Shown here: positions 39,746 through 57,105 of the stretch, piece by piece
Layout: each line of letters starts with the position of its first letter
Position numbering within the stretch: the stretch's first letter is position 1
Origin: Desmonostoc muscorum LEGE 12446
GTDB lineage: Bacteria; Cyanobacteriota; Cyanobacteriia; Cyanobacteriales; Nostocaceae
NCBI RefSeq assembly: GCF_015207005.2
Contig: NZ_JADEXS020000001.1
Location: 7,711,001-7,775,000, forward strand
Reading direction: 5' to 3'
Length of the DNA stretch: 64,000 nucleotides
The notes under the pieces: model-generated
Seen by the model: only the letters and a program-made list of their open reading frames with translations
The model's database searches: none
What the model was told of the DNA's origin: nothing
Translations under genes and position numbers: made by a program

Positions 39746-40356
39746 GATAATCAGATTGTTGTAATTAGTGAAAAAGTTCTCAAGCGTCTTGGGCGTCGTG
39801 TTTCTAGAAGAGTAAAAGGTTCAAAGAACAAGGGCAAAGCTAAGACTTTTTTAGCTCATCGCCACCTCAAAATAAGTAGGCAATCGTATTGCACCATGCT
39901 GTGAAATTAGCACGGTGCGTAGTTCAGTCTAACGACTTGATAGCCCATGAAGATTTGAGGATTAAAAATATGGTGAAAAATCATTGTTTAGCCAAGTTCA
40001 TTAATGACGCATCTTGGTATCAGTTTCGTGTATGGGTTGAGTACTTTGGTAAGGTATTTAAGCGTGTCACGGTTGCGGTTAACCCGCAATATACAAGCGC
40101 TGTTTGCTCTAGTTGCGGTGTCATTGTTAAGAAAACATTATCCACTAGGACGCACGTCTGTAAGTGCGGTTGTATCATGGATCGCGATGAAAACGCAGCT
40201 AGAAATATCCTTAGTCGGGGATTGGGTACGGTAGGGCATATCGGAACCTTTGCGCTAGACGCAAGCAACGCTTTAGGAGATGTGACCACAACTCATGTTG
40301 GAGTAATCCTGGATGAGCAAGTCATGTCTTTGATTAAAGAATCCCCGTCTCTTTAG
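39746..40356 (+). pseudogene. TnpB-like (IS200/IS605 OrfB) remnant, truncated and frameshifted
   Basis: The first segment reads NDNQIVVISEKVLKRLGRRV SRRVKGSKNKGKAKTFLAH then stops; a one-base shift near 39888 continues with NDLIAHEDLRIKNMVKNHCL, FVWVEYFGKVFKRVTVAVNP-like sequence, and the zinc finger CSSCG...CKCG, then DRDENAARNIL with the last catalytic Asp. This is the C-terminal half of TnpB, an RNA-guided nuclease of IS200/IS605 transposons. The N-terminal half, including the first RuvC Asp, is missing; the left border is near the MITE at 39728. It cannot encode an active nuclease. Confidence 0.88.
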
Positions 40357-42146: not shown

Positions 42147-42264
42147 CGGGCGATCGCCTGCGTAAATCCTCTGGATAAATCCAGCTTAGGTCTTAAACTA
42201 ACGCACTGTAAAGAATCATAACTGTGGATGAATTAGACAGAACCTTCCCTTCCAAAAAAGGGAC

Positions 42265-42474
42265 AAAAGCTGCTTTTTATGTCGCAAAAGCTGCTTTTCA
42301 TGTCGCAAAAGCTGCTTTTCATGTCGCAAAAGCTGCTTTTCATGTCACAAAAGCTGCTTTTCATGTCGCAAAAGCTGCTTTTCATGTCACAAAAGCTGCT
42401 TTTCATGTCACAAAAGCTGCTTTTCATGTCACAAAAGCTGCTTTTCATGTCGCAAAAGCTGTTTTTCATGTCAT
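42265..42474. repeat. 21-bp tandem array, 10 units (array 1)
   Basis: Ten head-to-tail copies of AAAAGCTGCTTTTCATGTCGC with exact 21-bp spacing. Each unit contains the inverted repeat AAAAGC-T-GCTTTT. The main variable site is position 20 (GTCGC or GTCAC). The first and last units each carry one change in the GCTTTT/CATG part. The array lies upstream of the SWIM gene, and its last base is the first base of a MITE. Several frames are open on both strands, giving heptapeptide repeats, but no protein is credible. Confidence 0.95.
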
Positions 42475-46413: not shown

Positions 46414-46630
46414 GACCTGCACCTTTGATGCATCGACCTGCACCTTAGTTGCATCGACCTGCACCTTTGATGCATCGACCTGCACCTTTGATGCATCGCC
46501 CTGCACCTTTGATGCATCGACCTGCACCTTTGATGCATCGACCTGCACCTTTGATGCATCGACCTGCACCTTTGATGCATCGCCCTGCACCTTTGTTGCA
46601 TCGCCCTGCACCTTTGATGCATCGCCCTGC
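46414..46630. repeat. 21-bp tandem array, 10.3 units (array 2)
   Basis: Ten full copies plus seven bases of GACCTGCACCTTTGATGCATC with exact 21-bp spacing. Each unit includes the palindrome GATGCATC (mutated to GTTGCATC in units 2 and 9). Units 5, 9, 10 and the partial one begin GCC instead of GAC. It begins 175 bp upstream of the penicillin acylase ATG (46239). Open in several frames on both strands but not credible as coding. Confidence 0.95.
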
Positions 46631-46664
46631 AAAAATTAACTCACCTTAAGTTAGACAATCCTTT

Positions 46665-46907: not shown

Positions 46908-48021
46908 CTGACTTTTCCCGTTAAGTCTTGAAAGGCTTACTAGTAAAGGATTTAAGAAACAGCACAGCAAATACGGTAAAGTAATTGCAATCGAGTGCTA
47001 AAGGTGACAAGCAATGCTGGACTGGTGGGAGAAAAATTTTGCAACCCTAGAACTAGGCGATAAGCCTGACGGCATGGCTACGCTTACCGCCGATTGAATG
47101 AGCGTGCAATGTCGATAGGCTATGCTCTAAGCCTTGGATTTGGGAAAGGACTGTCAGAAATCTTCAGCAATGGAACAGTACTTAAAAGAGCCTATGAGTT
47201 TTTGCCAACCCAAAAGTGCAATTTCCAAGCGTGATTGAGCCGCACTGTCAAATGACGGCGGAGACTGTTGCAGAAAGCGATGTAATGCTGTGCGTCGGAG
47301 ACACAACTTTTCTTGATTATGGCAGTATAGAGTCTAAAAAAGAAGGTTACGGCCCAATTGGGAAAGGCGGTAACGGCTTAATATTGCACAGTGCATTAGC
47401 TGCGTTCTGCTCGTAAAGCCAAGTTGGCTGTACGATTTTGTCCGGTAAATCTCCGTACTCCCTATCGTTTTGATAACCGTGACCCTCTATCCGTATATGC
47501 TGTTTATGCCACAGAAATTGATTGTCCCGAAGCTGAAACACCTGTAGAATGGATGTTGCTCACCACAGAAATTGTTGCAGATAGCCAGACAGCTTCTCTG
47601 ATTTTACGCTGGTATACGTATCGTTGGCGGGTTGAAGAGTATCATAAAATTTTCAAGTCTGGATGTCAGGTGGAACGATACAGACTTGCTGCTGAGGGTA
47701 TGAAAACCTTAGTTGGCTTTTTGAGTGTAATTGCTGTAGAACTGTTGCAGTTGACTTATCTACACCGCACCCAGCCTTCAGCCCCCGCCATTGAAATTCT
47801 GAATCCTTTAGAACTCAAGATTTTAAAAGCTAAGTCTCTCAAACCGACTAAACTCCTCACAGTTAATTGGGCTATCGAAGCGATCGCTCGTCTTGGCGGC
47901 TACCTAGAACATCGAGGCAAAACACCAATTGGTATCCAGGTACTGTGGCGAGGCTGGTTAAAATTGCATGACCTTTGTGAAGGTTGGCAGCTTGCAAAAG
48001 AGACTTAACGGGAAAAGTCAG
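46908..48021. mobile_element. Defective IS4-type insertion sequence, 1114 bp
   Basis: Ends are perfect 21-bp inverted repeats beginning CTGACTTTTCCCGTTAAGTC (46908-46928, complement at 48001-48021). The interior is a decayed transposase. No target duplication is apparent at the borders (AGTTTAAT left, CCCAGGCA right), so it may be old or have recombined. Confidence 0.85.
47014..48008 (+). pseudogene. IS4 family transposase, disrupted
   Basis: Opens with MLDWWEKNFATLELGDKPDG, matching the N-terminal DNA-binding part of Tn5/IS4Sa-like transposases, then several stops and frameshifts. VMLCVGDTTFLDYGS carries the first catalytic Asp in a second frame. The longest intact piece, 47424-48008, has LILRWYTYRWRVEEYHKIFK, the YREK-like segment with the catalytic Glu, and the typical tail. 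It is non-functional as a single protein. Confidence 0.85.
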
Positions 48022-50699: not shown

Positions 50700-51882
50700 C
50701 AGGGCTATTTCATTCTAAAAAGCTGCTTGAGTGTGTCTAGTCCAAAAGAACATAAACGTTGAGCTTGTGCCATATTTTTAAACATATTGTTTCGGTATAA
50801 ATTGAGTGAAAAATTGCGAGTGAGCGCAAAAATCTGAGGTAAGGGTGTAGTGCGAATTCGGGATGCATCTTCACCTTGGGTAACGTCCCGAACGTAATGA
50901 ACTTTATTCTCAACACCCCAATATCCTCTGATTCGTTCAGCTATTTGTTGAGCCGTTTCAGTTAGAGATGAAATGTAATAACGAGTCTCAGTAGTTACTT
51001 CAATTACATTGTGTGTGAAAACCTGACGTTCTGATTTGACTTGAATCAAAGTGGTAAGTCCAGGCCAAGGACGAATACCATCAAGATTTTGACAAATACT
51101 GACATGTCGCTTTTCGATTCGACCATGACCTTTATTTATCTGCTCAAAAGAAAATTCCGGTGTAAAATTAGTTTTGATATCTTTGAATAAACTAGGTTGA
51201 TTCCCTTTCAAGGCAGCAATATAATCATTGCCACTGTTGATAATCAACTCACAAGTTTTTTTTGTGTATTAATAGCATCAAAGGCAAAAACTACTCCCCT
51301 GAGAGCCAGTTTCTCAATCAACTCAGGTAATGCTTTTATTTCGTTGGTTTTGGCATCAACTTCAAACGGTTCTAAAATCAATCCTCGCTCTACAAGGTAA
51401 GCACTGACCAACATAATTGCTGGGTGGGAATCAGAATGTGGATTATCATTTTCTACTTGATATGAGCCTTTGAGGACTTTACCATCCATACCAACAGTTT
51501 CTCCAGGCAGTGGTTTGATGTCAAAGAAATTCGCAAGGCATACGGAATACTCTTCGTAATTTATGTGTAATAAATTACGACGGACTGTACTGTAAGAAGG
51601 AAGCCTATTCTTTGTCGGTTTCAAGAGGTCTATCAACTCCTCACGGTAGCTTGAAATCCAATCTCCAATTGCTAGAAATCCTTTATTGCCTGCGGCGATC
51701 GCCAATGTGAACAGCGCAAGACATAATGGTAGAGTATGTCGCTGTCCGGCGCGGCGACGGGGGTCTTCTAGACCTGCAAAAGCTTTGATAATTTCGATTT
51801 CAGACACGGTAGTAGATACTTGAAGTAGAGCTGGCGATGAATTCTACCATATTGCGTCTACATTTAGAATGAAATAGCCCTG
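50700..51882. mobile_element. ISAs1-type insertion sequence, 1183 bp, with 10-bp target duplication
   Basis: Both ends read inward CAGGGCTATTTCATTCTA (50700-50717 and complement 51865-51882). GACCATTGTC flanks both sides (50690-50699, 51883-51892). The transposase is on the minus strand and split by a frame change. Confidence 0.93.
50705..51807 (-). pseudogene. ISAs1 family transposase, split at an A8 run
   Basis: First segment, 51244-51807 (187 aa): MSEIEIIKAFAGLEDPRRRA, SYSTVRRNLL, GETVGMDGKVLKGSYQ (first Asp) and VVFAFDAINTQKK (second Asp). Second segment, 50705-51247 (180 aa): NDYIAALKGNQPSLFKDIKT, GHGRIEKRHVS (Glu) and YWGVENKVHYVRDVTQGEDA. Together 367 aa, normal for the family. The join is at eight consecutive A residues (minus strand, about 51256-51263): a -1 slip gives QKKTCELIINSGNDY. 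Either a deletion from a nine-A run or slippage; the clean ends and target duplication favour a recent copy. Confidence 0.88.
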
Positions 51883-54861: not shown

Positions 54862-55350
54862 TTATTCTTCTTCTAAATAAATTTCCCCGAGTTCTTTGCC
54901 AGCTAAAGGGATACTTCTATAACGAACTTTACCCTTGAACACTACTTGCGATCCCTCTGGCAAACTTTTTTGATTAGTCACAACCCAAATTTTGCCTGTT
55001 GTGTCATCTATTTGATAAGCCCACTGCTTCATCAGGGGAGCTTGCTTTTCTACCTTCCCTTGAATGTAAACTGTAGCTTGATTCTTTTGTTCTGGTTTAA
55101 TTTCTCCAATTGGGGTAACATTGGCGCCAAATTTTAAGCCAGTTCCACTCAAGCCAGAGGAAGGTAAATTACCACAACTCGAAAGTCCTGCTACTAGGAA
55201 AAAAGCTAACCCTACACGGTAGATAACAATACTTTGTCCGTACAAGAAGCCAAGGGAGGAATTTCTCGTTTGTTGCATGAAAGCCACCGATTGAGCAAAT
55301 TTTTGCTTCACTGCTTGTTTTGTCGCCACTTTGATCAGGTCAGTTCCCAT
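54862..55350 (-). CDS. Predicted lipoprotein with OB-fold-like domain
   Basis: 162 aa. A hydrophobic segment (VIYRVGLAFFLVAGLSSCGN) ends with lipobox LSSC, unusually far in (Cys near residue 59), so the true start may be later; a possible ATG start at MQQTRNSSLGF (55278) would give a normal-length signal. The mature part, ATVYIQGKVEKQAPLMKQWA, GKIWVVTNQKSLPEGSQVVF and KGKVRYRSIPLAGKELGEIY, resembles a small OB-fold (bOB_YgiW or nucleic-acid-binding type). Function unknown. Divergent from folD. Confidence 0.75.
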   Translation of the reverse strand: MGTDLIKVATKQAVKQKFAQSVAFMQQTRNSSLGFLYGQSIVIYRVGLAFFLVAGLSSCGNLPSSGLSGTGLKFGANVTPIGEIKPEQKNQATVYIQGKVEKQAPLMKQWAYQIDDTTGKIWVVTNQKSLPEGSQVVFKGKVRYRSIPLAGKELGEIYLEEE

Positions 55351-55719
55351 CTATAATACTTTCTTCTGAATTGGGCATGGGCATTGGGCGTGGGAAGAAG
55401 CAGGGGGCAGGGGGCGGGGGGCAGAGGGGAAGATTTTCTCCCCTGCTCCCTGCTCCCTGCCTCCTCATCTCCCTTATCTCCCTCATCATCATCCTGGCTA
55501 GTTCACTCTATTTATTCTTCAGATGATGCCCTTGATCTGAGAAAATAAACATTATGGATTTACTGTGAGAGAAACGCTACGACATCAAACAGCAACACAA
55601 TAATAGTTAAAAGTCAAGGATCAAAATTCAAAACGCTGCGTGCGAGACTAGAGATTAGGCAAAAAAGGCTCCAGGAACAAGAAGTAGGGTGCAGGAGGCA
55701 AAAAATAGTGGAGTTTTAT
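55351..55719. repeat. Intergenic region with GGGGGCA and CTCCCTG repeats
   Basis: GCAGGGGGCAGGGGGCGGGG (55402 on) and the inverted CTCCCCTGCTCCCTGCTCCC (55438 on) could pair. 55500-55719 shows nothing recognisable. Confidence 0.6.
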
Positions 55720-56034
55720 GCTTGTTCACGAGTATCAAGGACTCTTTGACGGTGTTAAAAGACTCGCTCACGAGTACTAAACACTTGTCCACGAGTATCA
55801 AACACTCGCCCACGAGTATCAAACACTCGCCCACGAGTATCAAACACTCGTTCACGAGTATCAAACACTCGTCCACGAGTATCAAAGACTCGCTCATGAG
55901 TATCAAAGACTCGCTCACGAGTATCAAAGACTCGCTCACGAATATCAAACACTCGTCCACGAATATCAAACACTCGCTCACGAGTATCAAACACTCGCTC
56001 ACGAGTATCAAAGACTCGCTCACAAATTTTAATT
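55720..56034. repeat. 21-bp tandem array, 15 units (array 3)
   Basis: Fifteen units at exact 21-bp spacing from 55720; consensus ACTCGCTCACGAGTATCAAAC. Unit 2 (55741) and unit 15 are degenerate. Each good unit contains ACTCG-NNCA-CGAGT, an inverted repeat with a 4-nt spacer. The first two spacer bases vary freely (CT, TC, CC, TT) while the arms are mostly kept, and the last unit base alternates C/G. It lies between the divergent lipoprotein and folD genes. Confidence 0.95.
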
Positions 56035-56061
56035 TATACGAAATATATAGTTATAAATTAT

Positions 56062-56187
56062 TCTCCCCCTACTCCCCCTGCTCCCCCTGCCTCCCCTACT
56101 CCCCCTGCTCCCCCTACTCCCCCTGCTCCCCCTGCTCCCCCTGCCTCCCCCACTCCCCACTCCCCACTCCCCACTCCCCACTCCCCT
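56062..56187. repeat. C-rich short repeats upstream of folD
   Basis: About ten copies of CTCCCCCTG/CTCCCCCTA (9-bp period) then five of CACTCCC, ending about 40 bp before the folD ATG. Confidence 0.85.
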
Positions 56188-56226
56188 TTTCAATCAGACT
56201 TGCGACAAAAGACGAACATAATTTTC

Positions 56227-57105
56227 ATGAAAACACAAACTGCCAAACTCCTTGATGGAAAAGCAATAGCAGCAAAAATTCAGCAAGAACTTTCTGTTGC
56301 CATTACCGAATTACAACCAAAAGTTGGACGACCCCCTGGCTTAGCAGTGCTGATGGTTGGCGATAATCCAGCCTCAGCTGCTTATGTACGCAATAAAGAA
56401 AAAGCCTGCGCTAAAGTTGGTATAGCCTCTTTTGGCAAGCATTTTCCTGTGCAAACGACCCTTGGGGAATTAGAAGAGGTCATTGCTACACTCAACCACG
56501 ATGAACGTGTGGATGGCATTCTCGTGCAGCTACCCTTACCTAACCATTTGGATGCTGTTAGCTTGTTACATCAAATTGATCCCGATAAAGATGCCGATGG
56601 ACTGCACCCAGTGAACTTGGGGCGACTAGTACGGGGAGAAATCGGTTTACGTAGCTGCACTCCTGCTGGCGTCATGCGGCTTTTAGAAGAATATGAAATT
56701 CCTTTGCAAGGAAAACAGGCAGTAGTGGTAGGACGTAGTATTTTAGTGGGTAAGCCAATGGCGTTAATGCTATTAGAAGCTGATGCTACAGTCACCATTG
56801 CTCATTCGCGATCGCACGATCTCAAAACTATCACCCAAAATGCTGATATTCTGATTGCAGCAGTGGGTCGTCCCGGATTGATCTCTGCTGATATGGTAAA
56901 ACCAGGCGCTGTTGTGGTAGATGTGGGAATGAATCGGGTCACTGATGCCAGTGGCAACAGTCGCCTAGTTGGCGATGTCGATTTGGAATCAACTGCTGCC
57001 GTAGCAGGATTTATCACCCCAGTTCCTGGTGGTGTTGGACCAATGACTGTCGCCTTATTGTTGCAAAATACATTTACCAGCTATTCCAAGGCAGTAAGAA
57101 AATGA
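56227..57105 (+). CDS. folD: Methylene-THF dehydrogenase/cyclohydrolase
   Basis: 292 aa from ATG at 56227 ([20 protein letters not shown]); an in-frame TTG at 56200 is not needed. FolD interconverts methylene-, methenyl- and formyl-THF using NADP. Motifs: [20 protein letters not shown] (catalytic Lys in YxxxK), [59 protein letters not shown] and the C-terminal [15 protein letters not shown]. Length is normal. It starts a plus-strand run folD, crtE, PAP2-like that I recall as common in cyanobacteria. Confidence 0.97.

Follow-up and report, generated by a model that had tools for sequence, protein, structure and literature searches.

Exact 21-bp unit length, rather than the palindrome, as the preserved feature of dispersed tandem arrays in Desmonostoc muscorum and related cyanobacteria

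What is kept in a tandem array whose letters change from unit to unit, while the units follow each other at exactly 21 bp? The question is raised by an array located upstream of folD in Desmonostoc muscorum LEGE 12446, within a stretch of 64,000 nucleotides called the window below (C1:7711001-7775000 of the 9.6 Mb genome). An earlier note on this DNA held that an inverted repeat was under selection in each unit. The results reported here suggest that the preserved feature is the exact unit length, and that the palindrome is not clearly what is kept.

The consensus unit of the array, ACTCG-NNNN-CGAGT-ATCAAA[C/G], defines what we call family 3 (features are collected in Table 1). All the units announced in the earlier note were found in register; numbers 1, 2 and 15 are degenerate, and TRF reported 12.7 copies at 55758-56023, with 90% matches and 0% indels. 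Spacers starting with CT, TC, CC and TT each occur among the units, as had been described, and the arm exceptions TTG, TGAGT and CGAAT were seen as well (CGAAT in two units), to which the degenerate units have to be added. Identity at lag 7 is 0.20, so the array is not a heptameric STRR of 7-bp period; its units are contiguous at 21 bp, so it is not a CRISPR either, where repeats are split by unique spacers. The two further period-21 arrays that had been reported in the window both exist. The unit of family 2 and the reverse complement of the common family-3 unit have the heptamer CTTTGAT in common, by eye. The family-1 and family-2 arrays belong to dispersed families as well, their patterns matching 29 and 26, respectively, of the 53 genomes of the genus.

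Table 1. Coordinates of the arrays, their neighbours and the family-3 arrays of the same genome
Feature	Position	Strand	Description
Family-3 array (array 3)	55720..56034	+	15 units of 21 bp, exact register
Left neighbour gene	54862..55350	-	162 aa; no Pfam match; lipoprotein-like by eye
folD, right neighbour gene	56227..57105	+	methylenetetrahydrofolate dehydrogenase/cyclohydrolase; Pfam PF02882, PF00763; start placed at ATG
Non-repeat intergenic stretch beside array 3	55500..55615 (limits approximate)		motif in 20 of 30 fetched folD loci; possibly a promoter element
Short repeats of 9 bp and 7 bp between array 3 and folD	56063..56186		TRF; repeat class distinct from the 21-bp array
Family-1 array	42264..42472		unit CAAAAGCTGCTTTTCATGTCG; TRF period 21, 10.0 copies
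Family-2 array	46414..46631		unit GACCTGCACCTTTGATGCATC; TRF period 21, 10.4 copies
Family-3 arrays of the same genome	C1 0.77, 1.04, 2.98, 4.02, 5.18, 5.81, 7.47, 7.77 (window), 7.97, 8.69 Mb		

Array 3 sits in a divergent gap, between the 162-aa gene and folD. The motif of the intergenic stretch beside it was absent, by eye, upstream of folD in genomes G300 and G291. Over the whole window TRF gave 72 rows scoring at least 40, chiefly short repeats of 7 and 9 bp and their multiples. Judging by eye from the translations, ORFs at 50705-51807, 47424-48008 and 39889-40356 are transposase-like; the pieces of this kind comprise two adjacent ones resembling one transposase, one fragment, and one TnpB-like zinc-ribbon piece.

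Searching the genome with the pattern ACTCG-N4-CGAGT-N7-ACTCG gave 45 forward and 37 reverse matches, and 0 for the reversed control. Patterns and DNA similarity together yielded about ten family-3 arrays, one of them between an IGPS-like gene and trpA (about C1:7467072-7467345). Neighbour genes of family-3 arrays are unrelated, and include those for PEP carboxylase, TrpA, an acetolactate synthase-type enzyme, PhnJ, and TPR and HEAT proteins. Two arrays of this genome adjoin a TPR gene and one a HEAT gene (neighbourhoods L435, L439 and L440), possibly by coincidence. The family-3 pattern was present in 50 of the 53 genomes of the genus, in some as just one match. A stricter two-unit pattern, tried on 291 genomes drawn from the order, was found in 5, namely the four drawn of the genus and one of the 287 others. 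Named records among the matches listed were from Desmonostoc, Mojavia, Scytonema, Tolypothrix, Fischerella, Westiellopsis, Brasilonema and Fortiea, and also, less securely since these are MAGs, from Stenomitos and Coleofasciculus. A viral origin of the unit was considered and rejected, as none of 70 single viral-contig matches had two full palindromes 21 bp apart; these matches (mean GC 0.58) are probably due to chance. The same probably holds for matches in an Azoarcus, a Dysgonamonadaceae and a Myxococcales MAG, whose linkers differ. Unit types recur from array to array (uncorrected 114-record set, see below), which indicates exchange or common descent.

From 113 named stretches and the window, 111 array records with 1287 units were obtained. 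Anchor spacing, measured without imposing a register and up to 60 bp around each array, gave 1051 in-register units and 13 off-register intervals. Four of these 13 are true internal length changes, in three loci (twice in L071, once in L110 and in L118); the others are three array ends (L143, L080, L120) and six intervals containing N (L109, L124, L138, each counted twice). In an anchor scan over whole loci, a spacing of 21 was counted 893 times, one of 42 appeared 62 times and one of 63 twice, while 20, 22 and 23 occurred once each; these figures, like those for coding and unit-type recurrence, come from the uncorrected set of 114 records, in which three arrays are doubled in the wrong orientation and one array of the D. 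muscorum genome itself is mis-oriented.

The arrays carry 901 distinct substitutions, counted by array, column and base, and 376 distinct inner unit sequences, so that 4 length changes in 901 substitutions make a ratio of 0.004. The array flanks had 168 gaps per 870 mismatches, or 0.19 (44 segments), and the stretch upstream of folD 0.25 gaps per mismatch (190 overlapping pairs). Compared with the flanks, the ratio in arrays is thus about 43 times lower when the 901 changes are counted, and about 18 times lower with the 376 distinct units, in a comparison that sets net spacing for arrays against pairwise alignment for flanks, and whose flank yardstick includes short repeats that raise the flank gap rate. 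Short repeats of the sampled genomes gave 32 off-register steps for ∼99 substitutions (9-mers), 11 for ∼34 (8-mers) and 30 for ∼616 (7-mers), meaning that repeats of 7, 8 and 9 bp are less length-faithful per substitution than the 21-bp arrays.

TRF used with a mild gap penalty did align gaps in 85 of 140 arrays of period 21, 42 or 63, at 0.28 gaps per mismatch, versus 0.37 in repeats of 5 to 9 bp. We judge those in the longer-period arrays to be paired gaps that leave the net length unchanged. As TRF trades paired gaps for clustered substitutions, its indel percentage was set aside and the net anchor spacing used. A generic anchor count at period 21 found off-register 13 of 108 steps in the sampled genomes, 15 of 665 in family-3 loci and 3 of 145 in family-1 and family-2 loci. 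Steps of 7 or 14 bp account for 11 of these in the sampled genomes and for 11 in the family-3 loci, which we read as heptamer-built arrays or self-similar anchors. A unit fixed at 21 bp while its letters drift suggests a role at the level of DNA rather than coding.

Is period 21 a property of family 3, or of a wider class? Sixty evenly spaced stretches of 20 kb (1.2 Mb, window excluded) were sampled from the same genome, and TRF arrays were retained with at least 3.5 copies and a period of 10 to 70, after exclusion of microsatellites and of harmonics of 5- to 9-bp repeats. Half of the non-ORF arrays (8 of 16) had period 21, an enrichment over other periods that the earlier note had asked for; the remainder had periods of 63 (two, arithmetically 3×21), 40 (two), and 20, 12, 35 and 36 (one each). 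Four additional period-21 arrays fall in long ORFs, by a rule which is crude, since array 3 of the window was itself classed as in-ORF. The eight arrays do not represent eight families: by eye, two are of family 3 or its sub-type, one of family 1 and one of family 2. Arrays of several different sequences share period 21. In 400 kb from two other genomes of the genus, G168 had two arrays of period 21 and two of 63, and G314 none. Forty stretches from other genera of the order (781,695 bp) contained a single, weak non-ORF array of period 21 (57% matches), which means that the density found in D. muscorum does not hold for the order as a whole.

The palindrome was examined in 1038 inner units, taken from the 101 records that count six units or more. 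Mean within-array diversity was 0.100 in the arms (0.074 without column 5), 0.300 in spacer columns 6-9 (0.14, 0.41, 0.32 and 0.33) and 0.118 in the linker, in a set biased in favour of the arms because arrays were located via at least one perfect-arm unit. Thus, spacers vary more overall, and the statement that arms change rarely is right for columns 1-4, 11 and 12; it fails for column 5 (0.332), which is as variable as the spacer, a result in the direction that the earlier note had named as evidence against itself. Column 17 reached 0.396, and linker columns 18-20 (AAA), at 0.038, 0.020 and 0.010, are conserved at least as well as the arms. Compensating changes exceeded expectation for a single arm pair, 2/13, with 9 units in 5 arrays (shuffle mean 4.2, 9 being reached in 0 of 500 shuffles). 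The other pairs had 1 (1/14), 0 (3/12), 1 (4/11) and 12 (5/10), for within-array shuffle means of 2.2, 0.0, 0.4 and 12.3. One-sided arm changes numbered 51 to 352 per pair, and all five arm pairs were intact in 543 of the 1038 units. In the folD array of G291, the one-sided CGAAT arm was seen by eye in 10 of 13 units. A sub-type of family 3, in which GAGT has moved by one base and the linker is one base shorter, still measures 21 bp (50 of 1287 units, 24 loci).

The inverted repeat is no more a rule for the class. When the best inverted repeat was compared with shuffled units, the eight non-ORF period-21 units of the sample gave p values of 0.41, 0.50, 0.29, 0.58, 0.037, 0.91, 0.92 and 0.94, so that one of eight passes 0.05, and the four in-ORF units 0.50, 0.95, 0.78 and 0.69. 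The three units of the window gave 0.060, 0.37 and 0.030. An inverted repeat in every unit, which had been proposed as common to these arrays, was hence not borne out, nor was selection for it, four of the five arm pairs being without compensating excess. Despite pair 2/13 and the variable spacers, covariation and shuffled units do not support the palindrome as the general object of selection.

Copy number is narrow. The 116 arrays retained (at least 4 units, by selection) have a median of 13 units, a mean of 12.3 and an SD of 3.7; the ten arrays of the D. muscorum genome have 11 to 19 (mean 14.8, SD 2.5). Gene context was then read from a simple ORF-based gene model, after merging the arrays split over two records at four of the 111 loci, for flanks and placement alike. 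Family-3 arrays lay in 47 codirectional, 31 convergent and 13 divergent gaps, and a further 25 stood at the edge of a contig or locus. Among the remaining gaps in these loci that measure 350 bp or more, 45 were codirectional, 12 convergent and 37 divergent, and the convergent to divergent ratio differs (31/13 versus 12/37, Fisher p 1e-5). The bias holds when one array is kept per both-flank cluster (24 convergent, 33 codirectional, 11 divergent, 24 edges; other gaps 10, 40 and 28; 24/11 versus 10/28, p 4e-4). The arrays had been thought to lie all upstream of genes, as the ORF list of the window does indicate, but family 3 favours convergent over divergent gaps, and array 3 is atypical in occupying a divergent one. 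In 20 fetched loci each, family 1 had 20 arrays (13 codirectional, 5 convergent, 2 divergent) and family 2 had 17 (11 codirectional, 3 convergent, 2 divergent, one edge). Orientation relative to codirectional genes was the same for 26 family-3 arrays and opposite for 21.

Persistence of the arrays is real but patchy. Both flanks were common to the array of another record in 38 of 116 cases, forming 14 clusters, some of which adjoin repeat-protein genes, where paralogy could pass for orthology. Pairs defined in this way had the same orientation in 34 cases and opposite ones in 2, both at one locus (L440 versus L077 and L103), which suggests an inversion or an independent origin. Both flanks are kept across genera between Tolypothrix and Scytonema, Westiellopsis and Fischerella, and Desmonostoc and Nostoc. 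Following the acetolactate synthase-type gene, an array is found in 5 of 10 checkable genomes (G000, G304, G240, G265, G168); the pattern was not matched near this gene in G291-G295. For trpA, G292 and G293 have pattern matches beside the gene, which G291, G294 and G295 lack. Among 30 folD loci fetched from the 53 genomes of the genus, 6 have the array and 24 do not (20 of these lack any unit-like match and 4 have one), including one locus whose FolD is 99% identical. Patchiness at folD and near the acetolactate synthase-type gene means that arrays are dispensable. The orthologous folD array of G304, a genome of the same species, has 16 units instead of 15, with degenerate ends kept and internal units that differ: unit composition turns over at this locus. 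Beside the folD array of G291, a MITE-like insertion was noticed (L280, about 1320-1430, inverted ends GGGACTTCCAA...TTGGAAGTCTC).

Phased protein-binding sites in a REP-like niche are consistent with the length lock, the narrow copy number, the avoidance of promoters, the absence of a preferred orientation and the persistence of some arrays, and we give this reading a probability of roughly 0.42. Most arrays, with some 7 to 16 copies of a unit of two helical turns, would let the bound protein occupy one face of the DNA over roughly 150-340 bp. On family 3, contacts of this protein would fall on two conserved blocks, AAAgACTC and CGAGTaT, and columns 5-9 and 17 would matter little to it; for the families with a different sequence, one would expect different proteins or a single one of loose specificity. 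Placement off promoters and without fixed gene orientation suggests that the role would be topological or nucleoid-organising, between transcription units, rather than promoter control. The binding, the role, and helical phasing as the cause of 21 are inferred. The earlier proposal of a protein-binding array or chromosome-structure element thus stays the best guess, on the grounds of the length lock instead of the palindrome. A strict 10.5-bp phase would not predict arrays of 20 and 40 bp, and these exist. No obvious candidate for the binding protein was seen among 20 proteins scanned from the neighbourhoods of the ten D. muscorum loci.

Length-faithful copying would look like selection on length. 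In a neutral or self-propagating minisatellite, unequal recombination or template switching would copy the arrays in exact steps of 21, with no selection. The 24 folD loci that lack an array, the patchiness near the acetolactate synthase-type gene and the recurrence of unit types agree with such a process, and avoidance of promoters is also expected of neutral DNA tolerated in unregulated places. It accounts less well for the lower length fidelity of the 7-, 8- and 9-bp repeats in the same genomes, for the narrow copy number, and for the arrays that keep both flanks across genera. As arrays are missing from close relatives, we hold this neutral origin to be nearly as likely as the phased binding sites. 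A function at the RNA level, in which the arrays would be transcribed and form hairpins close to the 3′ ends of mRNAs as transcribed REPs do, appears improbable. The arrays do border on 3′ ends more often than on 5′ starts (109 versus 73), and at a shorter distance (median 112 versus 176 bp, p 0.01). However, the array is nearer the stop in 28 of 47 codirectional gaps, which is not significant (p 0.20), orientation shows no preference, covariation is confined to one of five arm pairs, other period-21 units lack an inverted-repeat excess, and nothing in the window reaches the gathering score of an Rfam family (three miRNA-family matches within 55600-56200 fall far under their cut-offs, best E 0.075).

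Coding had to be tested because coding repeats would be equally length-stable: 21 bp make seven codons, and a protein of 7-residue repeats would read SFTSIKD forward or LILVNES in reverse. These frames run without a stop through 84 and 91, respectively, of the 104 arrays, synonymous changes exceed uniform mutation (0.358 versus 0.244 and 0.347 versus 0.256), and stop-bearing arrays are fewer than simulated (20 versus 38.7 and 13 versus 36.0). Yet stops match the column-shuffled expectation (35 versus 34.9 and 41 versus 33.9), so they are not purged, and an in-frame start with an SD-like site upstream exists for 17 of the 84 and 7 of the 91 arrays. The reverse-frame ORF of the window, which was the frame searched, had 23 database matches at E up to 1e-5, in 22 singleton clusters and one of three, without Pfam domains; moreover, just one of the four true off-length intervals is divisible by 3. 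A coding heptapeptide repeat is therefore disfavoured, and we consider it very unlikely. Equally slim are the chances of a promoter-proximal operator array controlling folD or the 162-aa gene. The divergent genes flanking array 3 invite this interpretation, but no array lies upstream of folD in most of the genus loci fetched (24 of 30), family 3 avoids divergent gaps, and its neighbour genes are unrelated.

Several known systems resemble the 21-bp arrays, for which a literature search that covered few subscription papers, and that took in PMC5987646, PMC3542288 and PMC4692102, found no published description. Iterons of plasmid origins are protein-bound direct repeats of about two helical turns beside a rep gene; they are alike in this spacing, but stand at one origin, while the arrays described here are at about ten chromosomal sites among unrelated genes. 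The LTRR of heterocystous cyanobacteria, from the same group of organisms, are longer tandem repeats, with a unit of 37 bp. PMC3733652 describes REPs as palindromes of 20-40 bp tagged GTAG or CGTC, the GTAG ones often near RAYT genes. REP/BIME elements as presented there are likewise intergenic, dispersed, palindrome-bearing and chiefly in unidirectional and convergent gaps, as was found for family 3 (31 convergent, 47 codirectional, 13 divergent, 25 edges); they differ by their tag, since the 21-bp units are untagged, in contiguous head-to-tail arrays, with no GTAG or CGTC stem end in the family-3 consensus. The Nostoc heptameric repeats GGGGA[C/T]T (PMC4692102) are also tandem, in the same kind of genome, and short repeats flank array 3 too. 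Their units are of 7 bp, and 7-bp repeats proved less length-faithful per substitution here. The parS site of plasmid F, sopC (PMC6238139), consists of twelve 43-bp tandem repeats with inverted-repeat motifs. Copy number is similar and an inverted repeat per unit is seen in family 3 (the 543 fully paired units above), but sopC has longer units and is the partition locus of a single plasmid, versus dispersed units here. No ParA or ParB was present among the 20 proteins scanned by the ten loci of the genome, a scan that left some adjacent short ORFs outside.

In a broader and rather doubtful extension of the protein-binding reading, Nostocales chromosomes would carry many such two-turn-phased, length-locked arrays of unrelated sequence ("many" meaning dozens, as extrapolated from our sample), each with its own protein, as a distributed, sopC-like system of architecture or partition. 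If true, a multicellular bacterium would fix the geometry of its arrays and not their sequence, between transcription units and with vertical retention at some loci. To our knowledge, the length of non-coding repeats usually drifts along with their letters, and we know of no such structural DNA element in cyanobacteria. With a unit length held about 18 to 43 times tighter than neighbouring DNA across genera, the choice is between a structural DNA element and a duplication mechanism counting in helical turns. The main exception to period 21 in the D. muscorum sample was made of the 20- and 40-bp arrays (3 of 16), at L276:8700-8881, L398:6259-6424 and L246:16546-16698, which are apparently one family with units like TAAATCAAGTTTTGGACTTC. 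Finally, the 63-bp arrays L404:15298-15649, L327:8863-9142 and L329:3639-3883, encountered once in this sample and twice in G168, have common pieces (GCAGAAGTT, GCTACAG and GAAACGT), and by eye may be composed of three 21-bp sub-units.
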